Source: Methanomassiliicoccales archaeon PtaU1.Bin124 (lineage in GTDB: Archaea; Thermoplasmatota; Thermoplasmata; Methanomassiliicoccales; UBA472). From it: a stretch of 64,000 nucleotides of DNA. Shown here piece by piece: positions 25,870 to 59,101 of this stretch. The position numbers and the translations under genes are program-made. Where the stretch lies: positions 1-64,000 of the forward strand of contig MVRC01000011.1 in the NCBI GenBank assembly GCA_002067865.1. Reading direction: 5' to 3'. Under the pieces are notes generated by a model that saw only the letters and a program-made list of their open reading frames with translations, did not search any database and was not told the DNA's origin. How positions within the stretch are numbered: position 1 is the stretch's first letter; each line of letters starts with the position of its first letter.

Positions 25870-26778
25870 TCATTTTGCGATGGAACGCTCTGCGGCCAGG
25901 ACGGTGTTGCTCATCAGGATGACCCTTGTCATCGGCCCGACCCCGCCTGGGTTCGGCGTTATGGCGCTGGCCTTCTCCTTGACCTTATCAAAATCGACGT
26001 CCCCGACCAGCCTGTAGCCCCTCGGCGCCGTCGCATCATCGATCCGGCTGACCCCGACGTCCACGACCACCGCGCCCTCTTTCACCATGTCCGGCTTGAT
26101 GAAGTGCGCCACGCCCATGGCCGCGATGAGAATGTCCGCCTGCCTGGTGTACGAGGCCAGGTCCTTCGTGGCGGAATGACAGACCGTCACCGTGGCATTG
26201 GCGTCCTTCTGCTTCTGCATCATCAGGGCGGCCATCGGCTTGCCCACGATGTTGCTGCGGCCGCATATGACGACATGCTTTCCCTCGGTCTGGATACCGT
26301 TTCTGGCCAGCAGCACCTGCACCCCATGGGGCGTGCAGGGCAGGAAGCCTCCGGCCTCGCCGCTCAGCATCCGCCCTACGTTCATGGGATGAAGCCCGTC
26401 CACGTCCTTCTTCGGGTCTATCTTGGAGATGACCGTCTGGGGGTCGATGTGCTTTGGCAAAGGCATCTGCACCAGGATGCCGTGGATCCGAGGGTCGGCG
26501 TTCAGCTCAGCGATCAGTTCGATCAGCTCTGCTTGTGAGAACGATTCGGGCATCATCAGGGTCCTGGCGACCATGCCCAGGTCCTGTGAGTTCTTGCCCT
26601 TCATCTTGACATACTGCATGGAGGCCGGGTCCTCGCCCACGAGCACGACCGCCAATCCGGGAACGATGCCTTGGCCGCGCAGCTTCGCGATCCTTTCCCT
26701 GAGCTCTTGGCTGATGGTGCTGGCCATGAGATTTCCATCGAGGATTCTAGCGGTCATGATTGTTCCCGTGGAGTCCAT
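25870..26778 (-). CDS. folD: Methylene-THF dehydrogenase/methenyl-THF cyclohydrolase FolD
   Basis: A 302-residue bifunctional folate enzyme. The active-site Tyr/Lys are in MQYVKMKGKNSQDLGM, and PKKDVDGLHPMNVG, the NADP-binding GRSNIVGKPMA and PNPGGVGPMT motifs are all intact. It interconverts 10-formyl-, 5,10-methenyl- and 5,10-methylene-tetrahydrofolate, the middle of the folate methyl branch. ATG 26778 follows GGGAGGT by three bases; ATG 26757, seven codons later, matches many family members and is the alternative. It is divergent from fhs across about 100 bp, so the two enzymes of consecutive steps share a control region. Confidence 0.94.
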   Translation of the reverse strand: MDSTGTIMTARILDGNLMASTISQELRERIAKLRGQGIVPGLAVVLVGEDPASMQYVKMKGKNSQDLGMVARTLMMPESFSQAELIELIAELNADPRIHGILVQMPLPKHIDPQTVISKIDPKKDVDGLHPMNVGRMLSGEAGGFLPCTPHGVQVLLARNGIQTEGKHVVICGRSNIVGKPMAALMMQKQKDANATVTVCHSATKDLASYTRQADILIAAMGVAHFIKPDMVKEGAVVVDVGVSRIDDATAPRGYRLVGDVDFDKVKEKASAITPNPGGVGPMTRVILMSNTVLAAERSIAK

Positions 26779-26832
26779 CGTACCTCCCATATGTGAAGGT
26801 TGCCTTGCAGGTGTGCCAGAGGGAGCAGGAGT

Positions 26833-26841
26833 CTTTAATAA
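26833..26841 (+). promoter_or_regulatory. TATA-like element of fhs
   Basis: CTTTAATAA sits about 40 bp before ATG 26879, predicting a leader of about 15 nt that includes the GGAG ribosome site (26867-26870). It lies within the intergenic region shared with folD. Confidence 0.5.
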
Positions 26842-26878
26842 GCGAACTTTCATCATAGCGCCGAACGGAGTGCTAGGT

Positions 26879-28552
26879 ATGAGGTCGAACATCGACATCG
26901 CCCAGGACGCGAAGGCCAAACCGATAGAGGAGATCGCCGAGGTCATTGGCATCGAGAAGGACGAGCTGATCCCCTATGGCCGGTACATGGCGAAGGTGCC
27001 CCTCTCCGTTCTGAAGAGGTATGATGCCCGGCAGAACGGCAAGCTGGTCCTGACCACGGCCATCACCCCGACGCCGGCAGGCGAGGGCAAGACCGTCACC
27101 ACCATCGGACTGGTCCAGGCGCTGGGCAGGCTGGACAAGAAGGTCATGGGGGCGCTAAGGGAGCCATCGCTCGGCCCCACGTTCGGTATCAAGGGCGGTG
27201 CGACCGGGGGCGGATTCTCCCAGGTCTATCCCATGTGGGACATCGACCTCCACTTCACCGGCGACATTCATGCCGTGGCCGCGGCGCACAATCTTCTATC
27301 GGCCATACTGGAGAACCACATCTCCAGGGAGAATTCACTTCATATCGATCCGACCAGGATCATGCTCCGCAAGGCCATGGACATGAGCTGCAGGGAGCTG
27401 AGGAACATGGTCGTTGGGCTGGGCGGCAGGTCCGAGGGCGGAACGCCCCACGAGTCCGGATTCATCATCACCGCCGCATCCGAGATCAGCGCAGTGCTGG
27501 CATTGGCCACGTCCATGCCCGACCTTAAGAAGAGGCTGGGGAGGATCATCGTCGCCTACACCTACGACGGAAAGCCCGTCACGGCCGAGCAGCTGAACTG
27601 CGTCGGTGCGATGGCGCTCCTGCTGAAGGATGCGCTGAGCCCCAACCTGGTGCAGACGCTTGAAGGGGACCCGATGTTCATCCACGGCTTCCCGTTCGCC
27701 AACATCGCCCACGGCAACAATTCCATCCTGGCCACGAAGTACGCCCTCAAGCTGGCCGACATCGTGGTGACGGAGGCGGGGTTCGCCGCCGACCTGGGCG
27801 CGGAGAAGTTCTTCGACATCGTGTGCCGCGCCAACGGCCTCAGGCCCGACTGCGCGGTCATCGTATGCTCCATCCGTGCTCTGAAGATGCATGGCGGGGC
27901 CGCGTTGGACGCGGTTTGTCATGCCGATTGTCTGGCCCTCAGGAAGGGCTTTGACAACCTCGACAAGCACATCCAGAACATCCATAAGTTCGGCGTGCCG
28001 GTCGTGGTCGCGATCAACTTCTTCGACACCGATACCAGCGAGGAGATCGAGATGGTGCGCAACCATTGCGCCCAGAAGAACGTCCGCTGTGCCGTCTCCC
28101 GCGTGTTCTCCGAAGGGGGCAAGGGCGGCAAGGAGCTGGCCGAGGCGGTCCTGGACGTTCTGGAGAAGGAGAAGGCCGACTTCCGCTTCCTGTACGAGGT
28201 GGACAGGCCGCTGAAGGAGAAGATCAAGACCATCGCCACCGAGATCTACGGGGCGGCGGAGGTCATCTACGAGGGTGAGGCCGAGCGGAACATCAAGCTG
28301 ATCGAACAGTCCGGTTTCGGCGATCTGCCGATCTGCATGGCCAAGACCCAGCTCTCCATCACCGACAATCCCAAGCTCAAGGGCGCACCGCACGGATGGA
28401 CATTGAAGGTGCGTGAGGTCTTGGTCTCCGCGGGGGCCGGATTCGTGGTGCCGGTATGCGGACAGATGATGCTGATCCCCGGGCTGCCCTCTGAACCGGC
28501 GGCCGTCAAGATGGACATCGATGATAACGGCCGGATCATTGGACTGAACTGA
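26879..28552 (+). CDS. fhs: Formate-tetrahydrofolate ligase
   Basis: The 557-residue length is standard for the enzyme. The ATP-binding loop is TPTPAGEGKTVTTIGL, followed by REPSLGPTFGIKGGATGGG (substrate-binding), GDIHAVAAAHNLL, and TEAGFAADLGAEKFFDI. It makes 10-formyl-THF from formate, ATP and THF, the entry of the methyl branch of the bacterial Wood-Ljungdahl pathway. ATG 26879 has GGAG eight bases upstream. Fhs is rare in archaea, which usually use formylmethanofuran and tetrahydromethanopterin instead. Its last 17 bases overlap a convergent DUF3786 gene. Confidence 0.95.
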   Translation: MRSNIDIAQDAKAKPIEEIAEVIGIEKDELIPYGRYMAKVPLSVLKRYDARQNGKLVLTTAITPTPAGEGKTVTTIGLVQALGRLDKKVMGALREPSLGPTFGIKGGATGGGFSQVYPMWDIDLHFTGDIHAVAAAHNLLSAILENHISRENSLHIDPTRIMLRKAMDMSCRELRNMVVGLGGRSEGGTPHESGFIITAASEISAVLALATSMPDLKKRLGRIIVAYTYDGKPVTAEQLNCVGAMALLLKDALSPNLVQTLEGDPMFIHGFPFANIAHGNNSILATKYALKLADIVVTEAGFAADLGAEKFFDIVCRANGLRPDCAVIVCSIRALKMHGGAALDAVCHADCLALRKGFDNLDKHIQNIHKFGVPVVVAINFFDTDTSEEIEMVRNHCAQKNVRCAVSRVFSEGGKGGKELAEAVLDVLEKEKADFRFLYEVDRPLKEKIKTIATEIYGAAEVIYEGEAERNIKLIEQSGFGDLPICMAKTQLSITDNPKLKGAPHGWTLKVREVLVSAGAGFVVPVCGQMMLIPGLPSEPAAVKMDIDDNGRIIGLN

Positions 28553-29141
28553 CCCGCTTCAGCGCAGCCAGAACGACCTCTCCGACGACCGCATAGTCCT
28601 CGGTAGGAAGCATCGGCGGAAGGGTCTTCGGGAAGAGCATCGTGGCATTGCCAGGCACTTCCTCGTCCCCCTGCCACACGGTCACCCTGACGGGCAGCAA
28701 GGGGAGGAACGGAACATCGACCGTGGCCGAACCGAACGCCTCGCTCCTGCCGCCCAGTTGTTCGGCGGCATGGACGAGCGTTCGAGGAGCGGAAGAGAAA
28801 GCATCGGCCAAGGGGGCGATCACCCGCTGCTGGAACGCCGCCTGATATGCCTCGCCCCCCGGCATCTGGCGGAACAATGCCCAATCCCATCTGGGGAGGC
28901 GGGATTCATGTACGACGGCCCATGCTAGATAGTGCAGGACCACGATCTCCATGAAGCGGCCCTTCTCAGTGAGATCGAACTCGATCTCCCTGCTTCCCAG
29001 ATCGAGCGAGGCGGTGCCGTCCAGTATCGCCACTTTGAACGACCTTTCCTTGGACACCGCCTCCAGGTCGTCCCAGGCCTGGCGCAGCGCCACACTGTAC
29101 CCTTCCTGCCTTACCTGATCGTACAGATGTCCCATCAGCAA
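28536..29141 (-). CDS. DUF3786 family protein
   Basis: A 201-residue protein ending with the arrangement I associate with DUF3786: LPLLPVRVTVWQGDEEVPGNATMLFPKTLPPMLPTEDYAVVGEVV. The family is common in anaerobes with corrinoid-dependent or Wood-Ljungdahl metabolism; its function is not defined. The 3' end overlaps fhs, and the 5' end overlaps the deacetylase gene's stop by a few bases. It is the last gene of a three-gene minus-strand group (MFS transporter, deacetylase, DUF3786). Confidence 0.78.
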   Translation of the reverse strand: MLMGHLYDQVRQEGYSVALRQAWDDLEAVSKERSFKVAILDGTASLDLGSREIEFDLTEKGRFMEIVVLHYLAWAVVHESRLPRWDWALFRQMPGGEAYQAAFQQRVIAPLADAFSSAPRTLVHAAEQLGGRSEAFGSATVDVPFLPLLPVRVTVWQGDEEVPGNATMLFPKTLPPMLPTEDYAVVGEVVLAALKRVSSVQ

Positions 29142-30019
29142 CTCCCACCATGGTGCTCTTCCAGATAGTCATCGATGCGGATGAACTCGATGCCCTCGTC
29201 CATCGCCCGCTCGATGATCTCCCTGACGCCGTCCGATTGCCTGAGGCGCTCCTCTTCGGCCATCATCCCTTCGCAGAAGTTCTCCACCATGTGCCAGGTG
29301 TGTGTGGCCATGACGAACAGGCCATCCTCGAACTGGGACAATAGGTCCAGGTAATCCTGCGGCACCCTCTTGCCCTCGTGCATGGGCCAGAGATATGCGA
29401 CGATCTTCCTCCCCTTCCTGTCCGTTCCGGACGCGATGGGCACCTGGACCAGACCGTTGGAATGCATGAACGGCCTGACCTTCCCATCCAGCAGCGGTTC
29501 GGTCATGGACGACTCGTAACGGAAGTCCTTGGCCAGGAGCGCGTCCTGGAGACGTTGATCGGTCGCTTGGTACGGCGCCCTGAAGCCAGGCCTGTCGATG
29601 CCAAAGAGTTCGCGAACGGTCGAACCGGAACGGGCCAGGATATCATCGAGGTCCTCGTCCTTGGGCCTGACCCCGGTCTTTTCCCCGGTCATGTCCTCAT
29701 GGTCGAATCCATGGCAGGCGACCTCGTGGCCGCGCATCAAGGAAGGAAGGTCAACGCGCTTCGAGATCTCCAGGGCGGTCCGGCCTTCGAAGAAGAACGT
29801 CGCCCTCACATCCAGATCGTTCAGCACGTCCACTATCTCCTTCAGCCCTTCGGCGGAAGAGGTGAAGCGGGGCGCCCCCTGCCCCTCTCCCTCCTTCGAC
29901 ATCGCGCAGGCCTTGCCTGCACAGGGCTGGTTGACGTCCCGATCGACGTCCACGGTGAACGCGGCGAAGCGCATGGACCAGCTATGCGAGAGGGTCTTAG
30001 ATAACATTTCTCTGCTCAT
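29135..30019 (-). CDS. Polysaccharide deacetylase (NodB domain) family protein
   Basis: A 294-residue protein with NodB homology motifs: an acidic TVDVDRD near residue 22 (metal-binding Asp), ATFFFEG, the HEVACHGFDHE metal-binding histidine motif, and FRAPYQAT. Such enzymes remove acetyl or related groups from sugars. No signal peptide is evident, so it may act in the cytoplasm. ATG 30019 overlaps the stop of the MFS gene (ATGA); an internal ATG at 29974 lies just before the catalytic domain. Substrate not known. Confidence 0.82.
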   Translation of the reverse strand: MSREMLSKTLSHSWSMRFAAFTVDVDRDVNQPCAGKACAMSKEGEGQGAPRFTSSAEGLKEIVDVLNDLDVRATFFFEGRTALEISKRVDLPSLMRGHEVACHGFDHEDMTGEKTGVRPKDEDLDDILARSGSTVRELFGIDRPGFRAPYQATDQRLQDALLAKDFRYESSMTEPLLDGKVRPFMHSNGLVQVPIASGTDRKGRKIVAYLWPMHEGKRVPQDYLDLLSQFEDGLFVMATHTWHMVENFCEGMMAEEERLRQSDGVREIIERAMDEGIEFIRIDDYLEEHHGGSC

Positions 30020-31504: not shown

Positions 31505-32755
31505 ATGCTGGGAGGTGCCGCTCTGAAGGGCGTGCTGATCATCGGAGGGGGCACCGCCGGCATATCCGCAGCGCGCACCTTATCGCGCTTTGGTATTCAA
31601 TCCACCATCGTTGAAAAGGCTCCATGCGTGGGAGGGCAGGCCAACGAGCTGGCATGCAAGGGCGTCCGCGAATGCGTCAAATGCGACGTGTGCCTGGCCG
31701 TGGATGACGTCACCTATGCCTTGCAGGACGAGAACATCCATTTCGTGACCGGGGCCAAGGTCGAACTGCTGGAAAGGGACCTGGGGCGTTACCGGGTGAC
31801 CCTTGAATCGTATCCGGGCATCATCGACAGGTCCAAGTGCATGGCCTGCGCCAGGTGCCTGGATGCATGTTCCTCGAACGCGATCGGTCGTTATATGTCC
31901 CGTGAAGGGCCTTTGTTGCAGATCGACATCGATGCCTGCAAGCATGACACGGAAGGCTGCCATGAATGCCAGGATGCGTGCGAGCGGGAAGCGATCGACC
32001 TGGACCAGGAGGCGGAGGGGCAGCAGGTCGAGGCGGACGCAGTGATCGTTGCCACGGGATCTACGCCGTTCGACCCGAAGCTCGATCCGAGACTGGGCTA
32101 CGGGACCGTTCCAGGCGTCATCACGTCGCTGGAGGCCGAGAGGTTCATCAACCTGATGGGAACCCTTCCCGATCCCCTGGGCAAGGGGGTGGCCAAGGTC
32201 GCCTTCGTGCAATGTGTAGGTTCCCGCGATCCTAGGCTGCAGGCCCATCTTTGTTCCAAGGTCTGCTGCAAGTACGCCATGAAACTGGCGAGGCAGGCGG
32301 CGACGGCCAACAAGGCGCTGAACATATCCTTCTTCTTCATGGACTGGCGGCCGACGGACCGTCAGGACGATCTTCTGGCCTGGGCTCGAACCAACGATAA
32401 GGTGGAGGCCATCAGATCAAGGCCGGCCGAGATCGTGCTCGGCGAGGATGGGCGTCCGACCGTCCGCTACGCCATTCCCGACGATGCAGGCATAGCTGAA
32501 TCGGGGTTCGACCTGGTGGTCCTATCGATCGGCCTCAGACCCAACTCAGACAATAAGACGCTGGCGGATATGCTCGGTGCCAGGCTGGGACCTCACGGGT
32601 TCTTCTTCGGGGAAGGCAAGATGGTGAGCGCCCTGGAGTCGAAGGGGATATTCTTCACCGGGGCATGCACGGGGCCGAAGGACATCGAGGAGAGCGCCAT
32701 GGATGGGGCCGCGGCGGCATCGAAGGCCGCCCGCTATCTGGAGGCTGAGAGATGA
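31505..32755 (+). CDS. HdrA-like FAD/iron-sulfur protein (first of a split pair)
   Basis: A 416-residue protein corresponding to the central part of HdrA. It has the FAD motif VLIIGGGTAGISAARTLSRFG (residues 10-30), then a Cys cluster C51-x5-C-x2-C-x2-C. Two ferredoxin-like motifs follow (Cys 112/115/118/122 and 145/152/155/159), and the HdrA-type CSKVCCKYAMKLA. The N-terminal HdrA domain and C-terminal ferredoxin are absent but occur in the next protein. ATG 31505 is the first start, but a strong GGAGGTG at 31511-31517 lies inside the frame and points to a start near CTG 31523 or GTG 31532. It probably moves electrons to MetVF. Confidence 0.88.
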   Translation: MLGGAALKGVLIIGGGTAGISAARTLSRFGIQSTIVEKAPCVGGQANELACKGVRECVKCDVCLAVDDVTYALQDENIHFVTGAKVELLERDLGRYRVTLESYPGIIDRSKCMACARCLDACSSNAIGRYMSREGPLLQIDIDACKHDTEGCHECQDACEREAIDLDQEAEGQQVEADAVIVATGSTPFDPKLDPRLGYGTVPGVITSLEAERFINLMGTLPDPLGKGVAKVAFVQCVGSRDPRLQAHLCSKVCCKYAMKLARQAATANKALNISFFFMDWRPTDRQDDLLAWARTNDKVEAIRSRPAEIVLGEDGRPTVRYAIPDDAGIAESGFDLVVLSIGLRPNSDNKTLADMLGARLGPHGFFFGEGKMVSALESKGIFFTGACTGPKDIEESAMDGAAAASKAARYLEAER

Positions 32756-34401
32756 CGGTTCTCACACCTCCTACTCACAGCAGCATCGAAGCGCCGAAGG
32801 GCGTTGCCGTCTTCATTTGCGGCTGCCGCGGTAAGGTGAGCTCGAAGATCAGGCTCGAGACGCTGCTGGAGGAGGCGCTGAAGCATCCCTCGGTCGGCTC
32901 CGTCGAGATCATGGAGGAGTGCTGCTGCCCAGAGGACATGGACAGGATGCGCCTATCGCTCAGCACCGATGAGGTCGACCGGTTCCTCGTGGCCGGTTGC
33001 TCATGGCATTCATGCAGAACGAAGTTCGAGAAACTGGCCGAGAGCTCAGGTCTGGACAGCTCGCTCGTAGAGGTATGCAACATCAAGGAGCATTGCGCCC
33101 TGGTGCATGAACCGAAACAAGCGGAGGAGAAGGCCATGCGATTGCTGAAGGTCTCACTGGCCAGATGCGACTCTCTCCAGCCTACCCCCAGACTCCGTCC
33201 CAGAACGGTGAACAGGACCATTCTCATCATCGGCAACGGCAGCACCGCGCTGACCGCGGCCAGGGAGGCGTTCGCTCTAGGTCACGAAACAATGATCGTA
33301 TGTCCGGGGGACGAGCTCTTCCGCACGGGGGAGGAAGGGGCGATCGGACTTGATGACGCCAATGTCAACAAGTTCCTGAAGGACGCCGAGGGCAAGGTGA
33401 CCCTGTCCACATCCAGTGTTCTCCGCTCCCTGGAAGGGGCGCCCGGCGAGTTCCGGGCTGTCATCGACACCCCATTGGGAGACACTGAGATCAACGCCGG
33501 GGCCGTCATACTGGCCATGGACGAGGAGCCGGCAGAGAATCCGCTGGCCTCGATCTTTGGCGACAAGGCCATGACCCAGGAGGAGCTGGAGCGGAGATTG
33601 AACTCCAATTCTAAGATGCCGGGGGACGTGGTCATGTTGGCCATGGACATGAAGGGCGAGAGCGCCTTCGATCCCATGTCCACCCACGAGGCGGTGCATA
33701 ATGCCCTGTTCCTACGCACCCTGAACCCCAGAACACGATCGACGATCATCACCAGGGAGGTATTTGCCCTGGGGCAGTGCGAGGCTGGCTACCGCAAGTC
33801 CATGGAGGCGGGGACCAGGATCGTACGCTCGGATGGATTCCCGGAGGTGCTGGAGGACAGGCTGGTAGTGAAGGACCCCGTCCTGGGCGAGGACGTGGCC
33901 ATCCCCTATGACCTTGTCGTTCTCGACAATGTCAGAACGCTGCCCGATCTGGAGGAGCTGGCCCGGGCGGTCAAGGTCCCCCTCACGGCAGAAGGAAGAT
34001 TGAAGCGGCCCAATGCGAAGCTGAAGCCCTCGGAGTCCATACGTCCAGGTGTATTCCTCTGCGGCACCGCCGGAGAGAGGGGCCTGGGCATCGGACCGAC
34101 ATTGGAGGCGAGGTCCGCGGCGGCGTTGGCGAGCGGCATGCTCAGATCGGACCTGACATCAGGCGGAGAGGTGGCCGAGGTGTGGCAGGACCTGTGCTCA
34201 GCCTGTCTGACCTGTGTGCGCACATGTCCCTATGGCGCGCCATCCATCGGCGTGGAGGGCAAGGCGGAGATAAAGATGGACCTGTGCCAGGGCTGCGGGG
34301 TGTGCGTCGGTATATGCCCCAGCAAGGCCATCCAGATGTACTCGTTCCGTGACGACCAGATAACCATTCAACTTTCACAGGCGCTAGGGGGGCGGAGATG
34401 A
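32752..34401 (+). CDS. HdrA-like protein with N-terminal HdrA domain and C-terminal ferredoxin (second of a split pair)
   Basis: A 549-residue protein. Residues 17-120 match the HdrA N-terminal domain (VAVFICGCRG, ECCCPEDMDRMR, VAGCSWHSCRTKF, VCNIKEHCALVHE). A Rossmann-like domain with a degenerate dinucleotide motif follows (TILIIGNGSTALTAAREA). The C-terminus is an 8Fe ferredoxin (CSACLTCVRTCP, CQGCGVCVGICP). Together with the preceding gene it supplies the parts of a full-length HdrA, though with a duplicated FAD domain. The genes overlap by four bases (ATGA). Neither HdrB nor HdrC is present nearby. Confidence 0.85.
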   Translation: MTVLTPPTHSSIEAPKGVAVFICGCRGKVSSKIRLETLLEEALKHPSVGSVEIMEECCCPEDMDRMRLSLSTDEVDRFLVAGCSWHSCRTKFEKLAESSGLDSSLVEVCNIKEHCALVHEPKQAEEKAMRLLKVSLARCDSLQPTPRLRPRTVNRTILIIGNGSTALTAAREAFALGHETMIVCPGDELFRTGEEGAIGLDDANVNKFLKDAEGKVTLSTSSVLRSLEGAPGEFRAVIDTPLGDTEINAGAVILAMDEEPAENPLASIFGDKAMTQEELERRLNSNSKMPGDVVMLAMDMKGESAFDPMSTHEAVHNALFLRTLNPRTRSTIITREVFALGQCEAGYRKSMEAGTRIVRSDGFPEVLEDRLVVKDPVLGEDVAIPYDLVVLDNVRTLPDLEELARAVKVPLTAEGRLKRPNAKLKPSESIRPGVFLCGTAGERGLGIGPTLEARSAAALASGMLRSDLTSGGEVAEVWQDLCSACLTCVRTCPYGAPSIGVEGKAEIKMDLCQGCGVCVGICPSKAIQMYSFRDDQITIQLSQALGGRR

Positions 34402-34802
34402 AGCTAGTGGCCCTCACCTGCTCCTTCTGCGGCTATGCCGCGACAGACCTGGCCGGTCTGCAGGGGATGAAATATTCTTCCGATGTCACGATCATCCGCC
34501 TGCCATGCACCGGCAGGCTGGACGTGAAGCACGTGCTGCAGGCGGTGCGCATGGGGGCCGACGGCGTCCTGGTGGTCGGCTGCCTGGAAGGCAACTGCAA
34601 CTATCAATATGGCAACCTGGAGGCCCGCAAGAGGGTCGAACAGGCGAAGGGCATCATGAAGGAGATCGGCCTCGAGCCGGAGCGAGTGGAGATGGTCAAT
34701 CTGGCCTCCAACCAGCCGTGGCGTTTCGTCCAGGCCGTCGAGGACATGTACGTCAAGGTCGAAAGGATGGGCCCGAGCCCGCTGAACAAGGTGAGAAGAT
34801 GA
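34398..34802 (+). CDS. mvhD: MvhD/FlpD-like [2Fe-2S] protein
   Basis: A 134-residue protein starting MKLVALTCSFCGYAATDLAG with a CxxC pair, then RLPCTGRLD and GCLEGNCNYQYGN. These are the conserved cysteines of the methyl-viologen-reducing hydrogenase delta subunit, which links an electron donor to HdrA. It overlaps the preceding hdrA-like gene by four bases and metV by ATGA. No hydrogenase subunits are adjacent, so the donor is unknown. Confidence 0.92.
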   Translation: MKLVALTCSFCGYAATDLAGLQGMKYSSDVTIIRLPCTGRLDVKHVLQAVRMGADGVLVVGCLEGNCNYQYGNLEARKRVEQAKGIMKEIGLEPERVEMVNLASNQPWRFVQAVEDMYVKVERMGPSPLNKVRR

Positions 34803-35500
34803 TCATTGCTGAACAGAAGCCGATACCGAGGATCGTCGAGATGCTGGAAGGCCACAAGAGCATGCTCGTGGTCGGTTGCCGCTCCTGCGTGGCGATATGC
34901 CTGGCCGGAGGAGAGAAGGAGGTCAGCATACTGTCCGAGGCCCTGCGCATCGAATCGGACCTGAAGGGCAATGGATGGCAGGTGGACGAGGTCACCCTGG
35001 AACGGGCCTGTGAGAAGGAATGGGTGGGCGAGATGAGGGAGAAGGTCTCCGGCCATGATGCCATCATCTCTCTGGCATGCGGGGTGGGGGCGCAGGTCAT
35101 GCAGGAGCTCTATCCCGACGTCCGGGTCCTGCCTGGACTGGACACTTCGAACATGGGCGCGCCGGAGGAGCAGGGCATCTATCTCGAGAAGTGCGGGGGA
35201 TGCGGCGATTGCGTCCTGCATCTGACCGGTGGCATCTGTCCCATTGCCAGATGCTCGAAGTCCTTGCTGAACGGCCCCTGCGGCGGGTCGCAGAACGGCA
35301 AGTGCGAGATCGACCCGGACGTGCCATGCGGATGGGACCAGATCTATCATAGCCTGGAGAGGATAGGCCGCCTCGACCTGATGGAGGTGCCCATCCCGCC
35401 CAAGGATTGGCGCAGATCCCGCAGCGGTGGACCTAGGAAGATCGTGAGGAAGGAAGCGGTCCTCACGCCTGAAGAGAAGTCGGCCAGGGGGGCTAGATGA
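34799..35500 (+). CDS. metV: MetV, zinc/iron-sulfur partner of methylene-THF reductase
   Basis: A 233-residue protein of the MetV family. It has VVGCRSCVAICLAGG and a cysteine-rich C-terminal half (KCGGCGDCVLHLTGGICP, CSKSLLNGPCGGSQNGKCE, DVPCGW). In acetogenic bacteria MetV forms a complex with MetF and conveys electrons to it, in some species together with HdrABC and MvhD. ATG 34799 overlaps the mvhD stop (ATGA), and its own stop overlaps the start of metF. Confidence 0.92.
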   Translation: MIIAEQKPIPRIVEMLEGHKSMLVVGCRSCVAICLAGGEKEVSILSEALRIESDLKGNGWQVDEVTLERACEKEWVGEMREKVSGHDAIISLACGVGAQVMQELYPDVRVLPGLDTSNMGAPEEQGIYLEKCGGCGDCVLHLTGGICPIARCSKSLLNGPCGGSQNGKCEIDPDVPCGWDQIYHSLERIGRLDLMEVPIPPKDWRRSRSGGPRKIVRKEAVLTPEEKSARGAR

Positions 35501-36408
35501 TGAGCAATCTCCAATCGGTGCTCAGCTCTGGTCGAATGGCCGTGACGGCGGAGATAGGTCCGCCGAAGTCTGCCGATGCAGAGACAGTGCGCAAACTGGC
35601 GCGCCACTTGAAGGGCAGCGCCGATGCGTTCAACCTCACGGACAACCAGACCGCCATGGTCCGGCTTTCCAGCATCGCCTCCGGGGTCGTCTGTTTACAG
35701 GAAGGGGTCGAACCGATCGTCCAGATGACCTGCAGGGACCGGAACCGCATAGCCATGCAATCCGACGCCCTCGGAGCCAGCGCGCTGGGCATACGGAACA
35801 TCCTGTGCCTCAGCGGCGATCATCAGTGCTTCGGCAACCAGAAGGAGGCGAAGAACGTCTATGATGTCGACTCGATCGGTCAGCTGATGCTTCTGAGGAA
35901 GATGAGGGATGAAGGCCAGGTCTGGGGCGGGGACAAGCTGGAGAAGGCGCCGGAACTGTTCCTCGGAGCCGCGGCCAATCCCTTCGCCGACCCGTTCGAG
36001 CACAGGGTGGTTCGCTTGGCCAAGAAGCTGGCCGCAGGGGCGGATTTCATCCAGACCCAATCCATATACGATGTCGATAGGTTCGAACGCTGGATGTCCC
36101 AGGTGCGGGCCAGAGGATTGCACGAGAAGGTCCACATCATCGCCGGCGTCATGCCGTTGAAGTCCCACAAGGTGGCCCTTTACATGAAGAACAAGGTGTC
36201 CGGAATGATCGTCCCGGACCACATCATCGACCGCATGAAGAACGCCGCCGACCCTAAGGAGGAAGGCATCAGGATGTGCGTAGAGCAGATCAAGCACCTG
36301 CAGAGCATCGAAGGCGTCCATGGGATCCATGTGATGGCGGTGGCTTGGGAGGAGAAGGTACCCGTGATCGTAAAAGAGGCCGGATTGTTGCCTCGTCCGG
36401 TCGTATGA
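35497..36408 (+). CDS. metF: 5,10-methylene-tetrahydrofolate reductase MetF
   Basis: A 303-residue TIM-barrel flavoprotein. The N-terminal MAVTAEIGPPKSADAE holds the catalytic Glu, and NILCLSGDHQC, GAAANPFADP, GADFIQTQSIYDVDRFERWM and IIAGVMPLKSH are all family motifs. It reduces methylene-THF to methyl-THF. No NADH-binding extension is seen; with MetV next door, electrons probably come through the Hdr/MvhD-like partners. It is the last gene of the operon beginning at 31505. Confidence 0.94.
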   Translation: MMSNLQSVLSSGRMAVTAEIGPPKSADAETVRKLARHLKGSADAFNLTDNQTAMVRLSSIASGVVCLQEGVEPIVQMTCRDRNRIAMQSDALGASALGIRNILCLSGDHQCFGNQKEAKNVYDVDSIGQLMLLRKMRDEGQVWGGDKLEKAPELFLGAAANPFADPFEHRVVRLAKKLAAGADFIQTQSIYDVDRFERWMSQVRARGLHEKVHIIAGVMPLKSHKVALYMKNKVSGMIVPDHIIDRMKNAADPKEEGIRMCVEQIKHLQSIEGVHGIHVMAVAWEEKVPVIVKEAGLLPRPVV

Positions 36409-36895: not shown

Positions 36896-37672
36896 TTATG
36901 CGCGCAGATAGTCGTCGCAGTAGAGCTTCTCGTTGCGCAATACCTGGCCGGTCTTGACGGTCTCCATCAGCGAAGCGTCCTCCGGATCCAGTATGGCGGC
37001 GCTCAGTCCCGCCCCCATAAGCATCGCGAGGTAGGTGCGGTTCACCAGCGGCCGGTCCTTCGCCCCGTTCGAGACGTTGCTCAAACCCACGACGGTACGG
37101 ATGGGCGGGTCGTTCAGCGATTGGAACATCTGGATGGCCTTGATGACCTTCATCCCCTGGTCCTGGGCGGCCCTGGTCGGCAGCACCAGCGGGTCGAGCA
37201 GCAGGCGGTCGGGCATGATCTCATGCTCCATGGCGGTGGTGATCATGATCATGGCCAGCTCGGCCCTCTTCTCGGAATCGTTGGGTATGCCCTTCTCGTC
37301 CATGGTGAGGCAGATGATGTCAGCGCCGAACTCGCGGCACAACGGCAGGAACGCATCCAGGCGCTTCTTCTCTGCGGTGGTGGAGTTCATGATGACCTTG
37401 TTCCTGGCGGCCTTGAGGCCAGCGGTCATGGTCTTGGCGCCGGGCGTGTCGAGGCATAATGTGGCGTCGGTCACGTCCTGTACGGTCCGCACCAGCCAGT
37501 CCATCGCCGCCGGACCGTCCTCGCGTCCCGGGCCAACATTGACGTCCAGCGCCTGGGCGCCGCATTCCAGCTGCCTGATGGCATGGTCCTGGATCCACTT
37601 GGCGTCCCGCTTGTCGATCGCCTTGCCGACAGAGGTGAACAGACCGTTGATGCGCTCACTGATGACGTACAT
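36896..37672 (-). CDS. acsE: Methyl-THF:corrinoid iron-sulfur protein methyltransferase AcsE
   Basis: A 258-residue TIM-barrel pterin-binding protein. CGAQALDVNVGPGREDGPAAMDWLV is the pterin-binding signature with the key Asp and Asn, and VIMNSTTAEKKR, CLTMDEKGIPND and LSNVSNGAKDR follow the family. It moves the methyl group of methyl-THF to the cobalt of AcsCD, the joining step of the two branches. It lies alone, away from acsC/D. A TATA-like CTTTTTATCC lies about 35 bp upstream and GAGG precedes the ATG by six bases. Confidence 0.93.
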   Translation of the reverse strand: MYVISERINGLFTSVGKAIDKRDAKWIQDHAIRQLECGAQALDVNVGPGREDGPAAMDWLVRTVQDVTDATLCLDTPGAKTMTAGLKAARNKVIMNSTTAEKKRLDAFLPLCREFGADIICLTMDEKGIPNDSEKRAELAMIMITTAMEHEIMPDRLLLDPLVLPTRAAQDQGMKVIKAIQMFQSLNDPPIRTVVGLSNVSNGAKDRPLVNRTYLAMLMGAGLSAAILDPEDASLMETVKTGQVLRNEKLYCDDYLRA

Positions 37673-55027: not shown

Positions 55028-58000
55028 TCATGAGAGCAGCGGGGCCATGCGCATGGCGGGATGGTCCACCTGGGCCATCCATTCCATCAGGCCCTGCGCG
55101 TCGGTCGTGATGGTCTCGTCGGCTATCTTGTCGACGAAGCCCTGTTCGCCCAGCTCCTCGGCGCGGCGGTTCAGTTCGTCCCGCAGCGCTTCCTTGAGGT
55201 CCTTGGGCATCCAGACGATGCGCAGGAATCCGCCGTCCGCTGAGATGAATTTCCTACTAGTTAGATACTTCCTACCCACACCGATGAAGCCTGGCGTCTG
55301 CTTGCCGCCACCGATGTTGCCAGCTAGGGTGGAGAACTTCATGCCGATGGGCGTCATGCCGCCGAACTCGCGGTTCACCACGATCACGCCCTGCATGTCC
55401 GCCGTCATGGCCACGATGCATTCGAAGCAGCCGCAGGACGTCATCGGATCATCCATCATGGTGTAAGCGTTGAAGCGTTCGATCTTGCCCCGGGTCAGCT
55501 CGCGGATGGCGTTGTTGACGCCTTCCCACTGTCCCTTGGCCTCATCGATCACCGCCCCCTTCTGGATGGGCTGGTTCGGGCCGGACGGGACGATCTCCTT
55601 GCCGGTCTTGGCATCGAGCCAGTTGATGGCACCGCACAATCCCAGGCGCTCAGGCGTAACGATGCATACATGGTCCGGTGCGAACGACTGGCACATGAGG
55701 CAGGAATAGAAAGTGTCGACCGCCTCATCGGTCAGATTGGCCATGCGTGCGTCGCGCTTTGCGTACGATTCCATGGCCCCTGGCAGATGCCGCTTGACCT
55801 CCGCCCCGTCGGTGACTATGGTCACCTGGACGCGGGAGACGATGTTGCCGAACTCCTCCTTGATCTTGCCGATGAGTATGTCTCCCAGGTGCTTCAGCTT
55901 GAAACCGGATTTAACGGCGTTCTTGCTGATGCGCACCCAGATGATGTTGCGCTGGCCGGTATGCCACACGCCCTCAGCGAAATTGAGGAACAGATGGATG
56001 CGGCGCTCGAGGACTGATTCAAAGTCCTCCTGCATCTTCTTGCCGTAGACATCCACCAGTATGGCCAGTGGAGTGGTCCATCCTTCCTGCATCTCGTCGA
56101 TGTCCTTGCCGATGACGGTGATGCGGCCGTCCTCCACCTCGTTCTCGTTGCGGAGACGAAGCAGTTCGAATGCCATTGTCTTCGCCGCGCCACCCGCTTC
56201 CAGATACGTCTCTGGCTTGCGGATGGTCTCCCCCTCGAATGCCGGACCGAATGCTACCGGCAGGTCGATGGTGGCGCCGCTGACCTTGATCTCCCTCGCT
56301 TCCAGCGCGGTCTGGAACATCTTGCCCATGTCCAGCTGCGAGATGAACTTGTCCGGGATGCCCTCGGCATCGATGTCGGCGATGATCGGTGAGCCGTTCA
56401 GCATGACCGCCATCTCCGCCCCTGCTTTAATGGCGTCCATCGGCCCGAAGTGCAGCACGAAGACCTTGGGGCGCTTGGCCATGTAACCGGCCAGTCTTTC
56501 CCGGTCCCCCCTCTGCACGCCGCCGAAGCTCAATGCCGCCCTGATGGCAAAGTTCAGGCCGTGGATGACCTGGGTGAACTCTCCGACAGGGTAGAGCATA
56601 AGGTCCAGGCCCATCTGGATGCCGCTGTCCTTCAGCTGCTTGATCGTATCGAACGAGGCGATGATCAGCATGCCCTTGCTCTGGCATTCCCTGACGATCT
56701 TCACCAGCTTGGCCGGGTCCGACGCGGTGCCGACCAGCACTGCAGCGCCAGGTATCGTATCATCGACGAAGGCCAGTCCCAGCTGGCGCAACACACGGTC
56801 GGGTATGAAGCCGCAGTAATCCGTGCCTTCGTACGGCTTGGCGCCGTCCAGGTACTTCAGGGCCTCGATGATCTCGGCGGCCACCATGACCGCCTCCCCT
56901 GCGGCGAGGGCGTTCTCGTACGTCCTCTCCTCCCGTATGCGGCCCCGGACCCTGCCCAGCACCGCAGGCAGGTCGCCCAGGTCGTGCACCTCGGCGCCAT
57001 CCCAGGCATAGATGGAAGGCAGTTCGTACGCGGTCTCGGGATACTCGATCTTCTGCTGGTATCCGTACTTCTCGATCGCCACCGAAAGGATCTGGTCCGC
57101 GAAACCGGTGGCGATGAGGCCTCCCTCGATGGCCATGCGATAGAGCTGTTCCTGGGTCAGTTTCTGGTCGCTCGTTTCGACCTGGTAAGAATTGGACCAG
57201 CCCAGCTTCCAGCGCCGCCGTTCGATCTCATTCAGCAGCTTGGCCGCCGCCTTCTCCGGGTCCGATTCGAAGATGAAATGACCGCCGAACACGTCCTGGG
57301 CGGAGCGTTCCAGCACTTCCGTGACCAGCGTGGAGCCGTAGATGTAGTTGATGGTGCCGACGTGAACTGGCAGTCCCAGCGCCACGCACCACGTGCCGAT
57401 GGAGACGGCCTTCTCATGGTTCGCTTCCGGTGCGGACGCGGCGAACGGAATGCCGCTGATGTCCGTGCCCAGCCTCTTGGCCAATTCAGTGGCGAGGTTG
57501 GCGGCGCGGCTGTTATCCACGCAAGAGCCCATGTGCCATATCGGGGGCAGCGCTACCGCATTGGCCTCTCCCAGCTCCTTCAGGAACGAACGCAGGCCCG
57601 GTCCGGCCAGCTCGACGGCCGATGGCGCCAGCATGCCCTGCTTGGCGAACGCTCCGGCGGAACAGCCGGTGGTGAGGATGAGTATGTCCTTGGCCAGCAG
57701 TGCCTTGGCGATCATGATGTGGTTGATGTCGTGAACGGCCCGCTGATTGTTGCACCCTGCCATGAGCGCTATGCCCTTGATCTGGCCGGACGACAGCGCC
57801 TTGACGATGAACTGCAACGGGTCGACCGGCGACAGCTTGGCGCACAGGTCCTTGATCTGTTCCAGGCTGAATCCCGCCACGACGTCGTACTTGACGTCGG
57901 GCACCTTCACCTTGGCCTTCTCCCTCTTCTTGTAGGCGTTGATTGCCAGGCGGATGATGGCCTTGGCGGACTCCTCGGCCTCCTCCTCTCTGAACTGCAC

Positions 58001-59101
58001 GTGCGTATCGTAGGGCAGGCGGACATTGGTCATGGTGGTGACCATCTCGGTGTGCATGCAGGAGCATAGCTCGGAGAGAGAGGGCATGATGCACTGGTAA
58101 TCGGCCACGATCAGATCGACCGCTCCGGTCGCCAGCGCCAGTTCCTGGGCGGCGAAGTTGGATGCCAGGGCGACGCCCTTGCGCATCAGCGTCTCGTTGC
58201 CGGTGCAGCAGATGCCCACGATGTTGATACCGGACGCTCCGACCTCCCTGGCCTCGTCCTCCAGGCTTCTGGCCACATCGACGATGATGTCGCTCAGGAC
58301 CGGGTTATGGCCGTGGATGGCGATGTTCACCGCATCTGGTTTGATCGCCCCCAGGTTGGCGTAGGTGTGGACCAGCCGGGGCGTGCCGAACAGCACGTCG
58401 GAAAGGTCGGTGGAGATCTGCATGCCGTCGTAATCGGCCAGGGCGCAGCTGATGCCCCCGAAGAGGAGCGGCAGCGGGTCTGCATCGCAACCCAGGGAGG
58501 TGCGGTGCATGACATCGGATATCGACTTCTCGATCGATTCCGGCACCAGGCCGAGCGCTTTGAACAGCGCCAGGCGGGCCGGTGTGATGGTGGACGAGAG
58601 GAAGCTCGGCCCGACCTTGTCATGGCGGGAGTAATCCTCGTAAACATAGTTCAGAAGGGTCCGGGCCATATCGTCCTTGGAACGGCCTTCGGTCTGCTCG
58701 CCCAGGCGCTGCAGGACGGCACGCAGCTTGAGCTCGTCCTTGACGCGGTAGCTGGACGATTTTCCGTCAAGCGCCTTCTGGACCGTGTCGGCGATGTGCC
58801 TGCCGTGACCGGAGTGGGCCGCGGCGCCGCCGGCGATATGGCGGATGAGGTTGCGGGCGACGATGGTGTAGTCCCTGGCCCCGCATATTCCCTTGTCCGG
58901 CTTTCCGCCGTATGGATTGATGCGGCACGGACCCTGCAGACAGTTGTTGCAGCAGATGCCCAGCTCTCCATATCCGCACTGCGGCTGCATCTGCTCGAAG
59001 CGGTCCCAGGCGGTCTCCATGTTCGTCAGCACGGCTATATCCATGCAGCTCTGTGCCCCTGGGTCGCAGGTGCGTTCCGGACTGCTCTTCTCTTCGGACA
59101 T
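55028..59101 (-). CDS. acsAB: Fused CO dehydrogenase/acetyl-CoA synthase (AcsA-AcsB in one protein)
   Basis: A 1357-residue continuous reading frame. Residues 1-635 are a full CooS/AcsA-type CO dehydrogenase. The B/D-cluster cysteines are C42, C50, C51, C54, C59 and C73; the C-cluster ligands are H263, C298 or C299, C337, C450, C480 and C527. From about residue 640 to the end it is a full bacterial-type AcsB including the N-terminal domain absent from archaeal CdhC. A-cluster cysteines are C1134, C1137, C1146, C1156, C1223 and C1225, with the same spacing as in the Moorella enzyme. The two halves join at about 630-650 without a linker. It would reduce CO2 to CO and form acetyl-CoA in one chain. 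The fusion is the odd point; in known acetogens these are separate subunits. Confidence 0.95.
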   Translation of the reverse strand: MSEEKSSPERTCDPGAQSCMDIAVLTNMETAWDRFEQMQPQCGYGELGICCNNCLQGPCRINPYGGKPDKGICGARDYTIVARNLIRHIAGGAAAHSGHGRHIADTVQKALDGKSSSYRVKDELKLRAVLQRLGEQTEGRSKDDMARTLLNYVYEDYSRHDKVGPSFLSSTITPARLALFKALGLVPESIEKSISDVMHRTSLGCDADPLPLLFGGISCALADYDGMQISTDLSDVLFGTPRLVHTYANLGAIKPDAVNIAIHGHNPVLSDIIVDVARSLEDEAREVGASGINIVGICCTGNETLMRKGVALASNFAAQELALATGAVDLIVADYQCIMPSLSELCSCMHTEMVTTMTNVRLPYDTHVQFREEEAEESAKAIIRLAINAYKKREKAKVKVPDVKYDVVAGFSLEQIKDLCAKLSPVDPLQFIVKALSSGQIKGIALMAGCNNQRAVHDINHIMIAKALLAKDILILTTGCSAGAFAKQGMLAPSAVELAGPGLRSFLKELGEANAVALPPIWHMGSCVDNSRAANLATELAKRLGTDISGIPFAASAPEANHEKAVSIGTWCVALGLPVHVGTINYIYGSTLVTEVLERSAQDVFGGHFIFESDPEKAAAKLLNEIERRRWKLGWSNSYQVETSDQKLTQEQLYRMAIEGGLIATGFADQILSVAIEKYGYQQKIEYPETAYELPSIYAWDGAEVHDLGDLPAVLGRVRGRIREERTYENALAAGEAVMVAAEIIEALKYLDGAKPYEGTDYCGFIPDRVLRQLGLAFVDDTIPGAAVLVGTASDPAKLVKIVRECQSKGMLIIASFDTIKQLKDSGIQMGLDLMLYPVGEFTQVIHGLNFAIRAALSFGGVQRGDRERLAGYMAKRPKVFVLHFGPMDAIKAGAEMAVMLNGSPIIADIDAEGIPDKFISQLDMGKMFQTALEAREIKVSGATIDLPVAFGPAFEGETIRKPETYLEAGGAAKTMAFELLRLRNENEVEDGRITVIGKDIDEMQEGWTTPLAILVDVYGKKMQEDFESVLERRIHLFLNFAEGVWHTGQRNIIWVRISKNAVKSGFKLKHLGDILIGKIKEEFGNIVSRVQVTIVTDGAEVKRHLPGAMESYAKRDARMANLTDEAVDTFYSCLMCQSFAPDHVCIVTPERLGLCGAINWLDAKTGKEIVPSGPNQPIQKGAVIDEAKGQWEGVNNAIRELTRGKIERFNAYTMMDDPMTSCGCFECIVAMTADMQGVIVVNREFGGMTPIGMKFSTLAGNIGGGKQTPGFIGVGRKYLTSRKFISADGGFLRIVWMPKDLKEALRDELNRRAEELGEQGFVDKIADETITTDAQGLMEWMAQVDHPAMRMAPLLS

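Follow-up and report, generated by a model that had tools for sequence, protein, structure and literature searches.

A two-gene HdrA with MvhD, MetV and MetF in a Methanomassiliicoccales archaeon: a candidate HdrBC-free methylene-tetrahydrofolate reductase

Introduction

Whether energy is conserved by methylene-tetrahydrofolate (methylene-THF) reductase, and how, is an old open question in acetogenesis. A simpler version of the problem is offered by a stretch of 64,000 nucleotides (the window; positions 1 to 64,000 of contig MVRC01000011.1, assembly GCA_002067865.1) from Methanomassiliicoccales archaeon PtaU1.Bin124, where an operon of hdrA1, hdrA2, mvhD, metV and metF contains no hdrB or hdrC. 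An initial annotation had linked this locus to the Moorella-type MetVF-Hdr system, and the analysis supports that link. The locus raises the question of where the electrons of an HdrA go when no HdrB or HdrC is encoded beside it.

Results

The five-gene cluster and its conservation

The five open reading frames (ORFs) lie on the forward strand at positions 31505-36408 and overlap by 4 bases at each of the four junctions, which is the layout of a tightly coupled operon (Table 1). Comparison with Pfam and NCBIfam matched HdrA1 and HdrA2 to the HdrA2-type HdrA model with 257 and 167 bits, respectively, MvhD to FlpD/MvhD with 142 bits, the C-terminal domain of MetV to DUF5981 with 122 bits and MetF to the methylene-THF reductase family with 148.5 bits. 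ORF coordinates, family matches and alignments agree with the initial annotation, which had described an HdrA split into two overlapping genes together with MvhD, MetV and MetF. As in the Hdr-type methylene-THF reductases, metV and metF adjoin mvhD and hdrA in one cluster. No HdrB or HdrC is encoded inside the five-gene cluster, and the hdrB and hdrC genes that clusters of the Hdr type include are missing in the window and at all archaeal MetV loci with this type of HdrA1; the absence first noted for the operon extends to every archaeal relative examined.

Four families of the order (f1, f3, f5 and f6) have the arrangement hdrA1-hdrA2-mvhD-metV-metF free of hdrB and hdrC. Beyond the order it recurs, likewise free of both genes, at L194, from another family and a further order within the same class, and at L195, from a more distant group of the phylum in which parts are reduced. 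Since more than 20 related genomes carry this order, a recurrence that the initial annotation had proposed to look for, the arrangement is not due to chance. In the relatives, fhs and folD usually lie to one side of the operon, and acsE is often found at the opposite end. MetV is mostly absent from family f2, two genomes of which (L196, L198) have MetVF without hdrA1 or hdrA2 and with folate-pathway and acsE neighbours. Among bacteria, many Desulfobacterota combine a MetVF-linked HdrA1 with a QmoB-like HdrA2-MvhD fusion, some with and some without HdrC/HdrB.

Distribution of the HdrA domains over two proteins

HdrA1 aligns to residues 143-563 of solved HdrA and comprises the flavin adenine dinucleotide (FAD) core, the inserted ferredoxin and the motif of the HdrC-facing cluster (HA3); the N-terminal domain and the C-terminal ferredoxin are missing. 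Its FAD core contains the E356/K409 bifurcation signature. The same alignment shows three parts in HdrA2, namely the N-terminal domain, an FAD domain that is weakened and lacks the HA3 motif, and the C-terminal ferredoxin; H stands at the position of K409. The predicted model of HdrA2 (mean pLDDT, the predicted local distance difference test, 79) found methanogen HdrA as its top match (E 3.3e-40, TMq 0.77). The pair accordingly holds two HdrA flavin modules, of which at least one, that of HdrA1, carries E356/K409, and N-terminal domain and Cys197 are distributed in a complementary manner over the adjacent genes, as in tandem heterodimeric HdrAs; a single gene with all four domains, as in canonical HdrABC, is not what the window encodes. 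Neither HdrA1 nor HdrA2 shows a GltD-like module, and NADH was rejected as donor on this ground.

The split is in itself no novelty, because the HdrA of acetogens consists of two fused units and tandem heterodimeric HdrAs have been published (PMC9012536, PMC9430772). Sporomusa ovata HdrA has a first flavin module, with E and K conserved, and behind it an N-terminal-type domain, another flavin module and the C-terminal ferredoxin (Kremp et al., PMC9430772), which is the order of modules in hdrA1-hdrA2. Moorella HdrA likewise represents two fused HdrAs, and anaerobic methanotrophic archaea (ANME) have tandem HdrA genes with complementary N-terminal domain and Cys197, for which heterodimers were proposed (Chadwick et al., PMC9012536). 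As in the window, one protein of the ANME pairs HdrA 5/6 and 12/13 has the N-terminal domain and no Cys197, and the other Cys197 and no N-terminal domain (PMC9012536); unlike them, the window pair is tied to MetVF, and its HdrA1 has four cysteines at the Cys197 site where theirs has two. Because of these published forms, and because the same genome encodes a fused HdrA1-HdrA2 paralogue of 1013 amino acids together with mvhD, mvhG and mvhA (L055), the two-gene HdrA is a variant of a known design. A single-gene hdrA in relatives, which had been named as a possible objection to the split, was encountered only as a paralogue dedicated to the Mvh hydrogenase and at one locus from another family of the phylum (L197, 7759-12390), where a Moorella-like fused HdrA of 1543 amino acids is followed by MvhD, MetV and MetF; the contig of that locus ends upstream, where hdrBC might lie.

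A four-cysteine motif in HdrA1

At the site where canonical HdrA has only CX2C (Cys194/Cys197), HdrA1 carries a CX5CX2CX2C motif (Table 1). On a tree of 62 HdrA1-type proteins, 47 with and 15 without the motif, it maps to a single change. The motif is present in 42 of 49 HdrA proteins from MetV-bearing loci and in 13 of 69 from elsewhere, several of these 13 lying on short contigs; the counts are biased, because an HdrA1 of this type served to fetch the loci and because the genomes, being related, do not count as independent. In L120 the fused HdrA, which is Sporomusa-like, has the motif, and the Moorella-like type (about 1,500 residues) does not. HdrA1 belongs to an HdrA subfamily that is marked by CX5CX2CX2C and linked to MetVF. 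The four cysteines could hold a [4Fe-4S] cluster in HdrA1 alone that is not shared with the N-terminal domain of a partner, and such a self-contained cluster would explain why the N-terminal domain is dispensable.

Parts that are kept and parts that are lost

The four HA3 cysteines, Cys197 and E356 are kept in the HdrA1 of all 23 members of the order compared. The residue at position 409 is K in 16 of them, R in six and G in one; the six with R are all the f1/g2 genomes examined (L144-L149), which have an intact inserted ferredoxin, and the one with G is the f3 genome. The cysteines of the HdrA2 C-terminal ferredoxin are invariant in 13/13 aligned sequences, and the domain is retained in the further sequences listed. 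MvhD keeps its four cysteines in all reliably readable sequences (L040 and L047 were left out, their reads being out of frame or partial), and 13 cysteines of MetV are invariant among 19 aligned homologues.

Two other parts have been lost in several lineages. Family f6 and the f1 genera g5-g7 have no inserted ferredoxin in HdrA1; in f6 and g7, HdrA2 also has no N-terminal domain. When the columns of the inserted ferredoxin were left out of the HdrA1 tree, two changes were needed to account for the loss of this domain or its cysteines, one among archaea and the other in Desulfobacterota. The archaea that lack the domain form a group (support 90/81) that cuts across family f1, and therefore a transfer or a second loss is possible. 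All archaeal forms without the N-terminal domain also lack the inserted ferredoxin; the f1/g2 genomes keep both, with one altered cysteine. A rule of joint loss fails in the Desulfobacterota L062 and L065, where HdrA1 keeps the ferredoxin and HdrA2 has no N-terminal domain. Nor does K409 follow the inserted ferredoxin, since g2 combines the ferredoxin with R and forms without the ferredoxin keep K.

Genomic context

The source genome (2.2 Mb, 99.8% complete) contains mcrA, so that the host is a methanogen, and the window sits on a contig of 258 kb. Bacterial-type folate Wood-Ljungdahl genes are found in the window: fhs, folD, acsE, the gene for a RACo-type activator, CdhD-family corrinoid-protein genes and a carbon monoxide dehydrogenase/acetyl-CoA synthase (CODH/ACS) gene. 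The product of metF is the only match to the methylene-THF reductase family in the genome. MvhA is encoded twice outside the operon, the genome having two MvhGA sets. A molybdopterin-family protein, which would have suggested formate dehydrogenase as donor, was searched for in the genome and not found.

Table 1. Features of the operon and of neighbouring folate genes (window coordinates).
Feature	Position	Strand	Description	Basis or remark
hdrA1	31505..32755	+	HdrA/QmoA-like flavoprotein, 416 amino acids	Alignment to solved HdrA
CX5CX2CX2C motif of HdrA1	31655..31693	+	Residues 51-63, CKGVRECVKCDVC	
Inserted ferredoxin of HdrA1	31823..32008	+	Residues ~107-168, eight cysteines for two [4Fe-4S] clusters	
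HA3 cluster motif of HdrA1	32213..32269	+	C237, C250, C254, C255	Faces HdrC in canonical HdrABC
hdrA2	32752..34401	+	549 amino acids	N-terminal HdrA domain, degenerate FAD domain, C-terminal two-cluster ferredoxin
C-terminal ferredoxin of HdrA2	34174..34341	+	Residues ~475-530	Eight cysteines invariant in relatives aligned
mvhD	34398..34802	+	FlpD/MvhD [2Fe-2S] protein, 134 amino acids	Pfam/NCBIfam
metV	34799..35500	+	MetV subunit of methylene-THF reductase, 233 amino acids	Pfam/NCBIfam
metF	35497..36408	+	Methylene-THF reductase, 303 amino acids	Pfam/NCBIfam
acsE	36896..37672	-	Methyl-THF:corrinoid protein methyltransferase	Downstream of metF
fhs ORF	26423..28552	+	Formate-THF ligase	True start internal, ~450 bases in; orthologues adjoin the operon in relatives
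folD ORF	25870..26952	-	Methylene-THF dehydrogenase/cyclohydrolase	Orthologues adjoin the operon in relatives

Some further genes were observed. A single open frame of 1357 amino acids at 55028-59101 (reverse strand) contains CODH (Prismane) and ACS domains as a fusion. Between fhs and hdrA1 the window encodes a NodB-like deacetylase and a DUF3786 protein (29135-29974 and 28536-29141, reverse strand); deacetylase-like ORFs occupy the same spot in many relatives (e.g., L040, L042, L044, L050, L051) and also adjoin the folate genes in the f2 genomes L196 and L198, both without hdrA. Elsewhere in the genome (L160 5180-9653; C16, ~155-161 kb) a ferredoxin-MvhD fusion is followed by NfnA- and NfnB-like ORFs, MvhG and MvhA, possibly an NADPH-linked hydrogenase.

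Discussion

A proposed path of electrons from MvhD to MetF

We propose as the likeliest reading, with confidence that is evenly balanced, that the operon encodes an HdrBC-free Hdr-type methylene-THF reductase in which MetV stands in the place of HdrC. The starting points are the observed gene content, the conserved order, the anatomy of domains and cysteines and the parts kept in all relatives. The five proteins would form one complex, with HdrA1 and HdrA2 paired in an asymmetric heterodimer that corresponds to the fused Sporomusa HdrA. From the presence of mvhD in the operon and of two MvhGA sets in the genome we infer H2 as donor, and it would be the likeliest one because MvhD probably docks to an MvhAG hydrogenase encoded elsewhere. 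MvhD would hand its electrons to the HdrA2 C-terminal ferredoxin, from where they would reach HdrA1 and the only FAD of the pair that is competent for bifurcation. Those of higher potential would go on via HA3 to MetV, then to the MetF flavin and finally to methylene-THF. The components that are never lost (MvhD, the HdrA2 C-terminal ferredoxin, the HdrA1 FAD and HA3) line up along this one path as far as HA3. MetV would be the natural acceptor at HA3 because there is no HdrC in the operon, because MetV has 13 invariant cysteines and because tagged MetV of S. ovata pulled down HdrA and MetF and not HdrB (PMC9430772).

In the version found in the window, electrons of lower potential may leave through the inserted ferredoxin to soluble ferredoxin; as HdrA1 keeps this domain, bifurcation to ferredoxin is possible. 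Methylene-THF, initially suggested as the sole disulfide-free outlet, is probably not the only one, since the inserted ferredoxin, where an outlet to ferredoxin is to be expected, has kept its full set of eight cysteines. At a ferredoxin potential of -500 mV, the reduction of ferredoxin by H2 costs about 17 kJ/mol at standard H2 by our own arithmetic. It would be affordable under these conditions because the drop from H2 to methylene-THF amounts to 41.3 kJ/mol (PMC9430772). Net flow in the direction of reduction for acetyl-CoA synthesis is favoured because fhs, folD, acsE and CODH/ACS genes adjoin, the steps being reversible. More tentatively, and with less confidence than in the operon itself, HdrA proteins of the motif subfamily, with a self-contained cluster site beside the FAD, may give electrons directly to MetV and not to HdrC/HdrB, making HdrA a general bifurcating module for a carbon enzyme that does not act on a disulfide; here it would couple H2-driven methylene-THF reduction to the reduction of ferredoxin and supply low-potential electrons for CODH/ACS.

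Several points weigh against an HdrBC-free bifurcating enzyme. The five-protein complex is predicted from genes, and the bifurcating reaction would not be exergonic at low H2. Replacement of K409 by R in f1/g2 and by G in f3 makes universal bifurcation seem unlikely. Bacterial relatives with the same type of HdrA1 in several cases carry HdrC/HdrB in the cluster (L071, L103, L120, L128, L133), and the source genome has three HdrBC sets elsewhere. Physical contact of MetVF with HdrA and MvhD was shown for S. ovata by pulldown; nevertheless, Sporomusa MetVF was purified without Hdr proteins, and HdrB also contacted MetF (PMC9430772). A fold comparison of MetV gave only matches to the common arrangement of its Rossmann-like N-terminal part, including Dph2 (Z 8.4); no HdrC-like match was listed, and the result bears neither way.

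Alternative readings

If an unlinked HdrBC joins, the operon would belong to an ordinary six-subunit complex of the Moorella/Sporomusa type with the hdrBC genes located away from it. HdrBC is not lacking from the genome as a whole, since the three sets lie at C15 (~118 kb), at C2 (~25 kb, no hdrA beside it) and at C6 (~216 kb, with its own hdrA); the gene data confirm hdrBC in the genome and do not show any of it joining this complex. Separation of hdrBC from hdrA-mvhDGA is normal in Methanomassiliicoccales (PMC4153887), related bacterial clusters include hdrC/hdrB, and HA3 is kept in every HdrA1. However, HdrC/B was found in the operon of no archaeal locus, the C15 pair is the one expected to work with the hydrogenase-linked HdrA, and for the C2-type HdrB, which lies near a fused double HdrA in some genomes of other families, a close orthologue is missing from the f1/g2 genomes, G025 and G026, all of which keep the operon. 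We consider the joining of HdrBC unlikely on balance. The C2 pair itself is an hdrC-hdrB pair with no adjoining hdrA (L057 6407-7709), and co-occurrence does not support it as an obligate partner.

The pair HdrA1A2 might also merely wire MvhD (hydrogenase) or ferredoxin to MetVF without bifurcation. Such a relay would fit with the loss of the inserted ferredoxin at least once in archaea and once in Desulfobacterota, with the replacement of K409 in g2 and f3 and with the MetVF enzyme of Clostridium ljungdahlii, which is reported to depend on reduced ferredoxin (PMC8515935). The HdrA1 of the window, in contrast, has E356, K409 and the full inserted ferredoxin, and E356/K409 are published markers of the bifurcating HdrA flavin (PMC9430772), so that a simple relay seems improbable for this genome. 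In yet another scheme, methyl-THF derived from methanol or acetate would be oxidised, and its electrons, possibly confurcated with ferredoxin, would serve methanogenesis in the form of H2 or other reduced carriers. In favour of it, the host has mcrA and is a methanogen, and for the Lake Pavin clade methyl-THF oxidation was proposed by Speth and Orphan, who could not name the enzyme that links its electrons to ferredoxin (PMC6147122). Acetyl-CoA synthesis accounts at least as well for the acsE, RACo and CODH/ACS genes close to the operon, and although the direction of flow is not readable from sequence, we regard an oxidative role as very unlikely.

Comparison with known systems

Among the closest known systems is HdrCBA-MvhD-MetVF of S. 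ovata and Moorella thermoacetica (PMC9430772). The proposed HdrBC-free enzyme has MetV, MetF and MvhD in common with it, and also an HdrA of two modules in which at least one flavin is of the bifurcating E/K type. It differs from both in that HdrA is encoded by two genes, HdrB and HdrC are missing in the cluster and HdrA1 retains the inserted ferredoxin, and from Moorella also in having no GltD/NAD(P)H module. Membership in the Hdr-type reductases thus fails on hdrBC in the cluster, and we have moderate confidence that the operon works like one. QmoAB pairs an HdrA-like core protein with an HdrA-plus-MvhD-type protein. In the window, no QmoB with a fused MvhD domain, as in QmoABC, is encoded; MvhD is a separate gene, and the link is to MetVF and not to Apr, the likeness to QmoAB being one of description and not of authenticated QmoA/QmoB sequences. 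The domains and cluster motifs of HdrA in methanogen HdrABC-MvhAGD (PDB 5odc) are the same and are spread over two proteins in the window; there, HdrA is homodimeric and reduces CoM-S-S-CoB with HdrBC. The ANME study found no MetF of ANME-1 within a cluster with HdrA, but noted MetFV-HdrA-MvhD clusters in Ca. Syntrophoarchaeum (PMC9012536). For the same order of methanogens, a bifurcating 'Met' set was reported from Methanomassiliicoccus intestinalis, which also combines archaeal MetFV with MvhD; that survey screened for canonical HdrABC and, in the portion drawn on here, describes neither a two-gene HdrA nor domain losses (PMC6085437).

Less expected than the split of HdrA are the conserved hdrBC-free order, the motif subfamily tied to MetVF and the selective losses of domains. 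The relatives form a graded series, some with and some without the ferredoxin outlet and the N-terminal domain, so that comparing them can test what each HdrA branch does, and as Methanomassiliicoccus sp. QR_Bin.16 (L107) carries the reduced version, a cultured relative may exist for such tests. For the Lake Pavin clade (PMC6147122), the operon is a candidate for the enzyme that links folate one-carbon electrons to ferredoxin. Taken together, the conserved arrangement suggests that HdrA can feed electrons straight into carbon metabolism.

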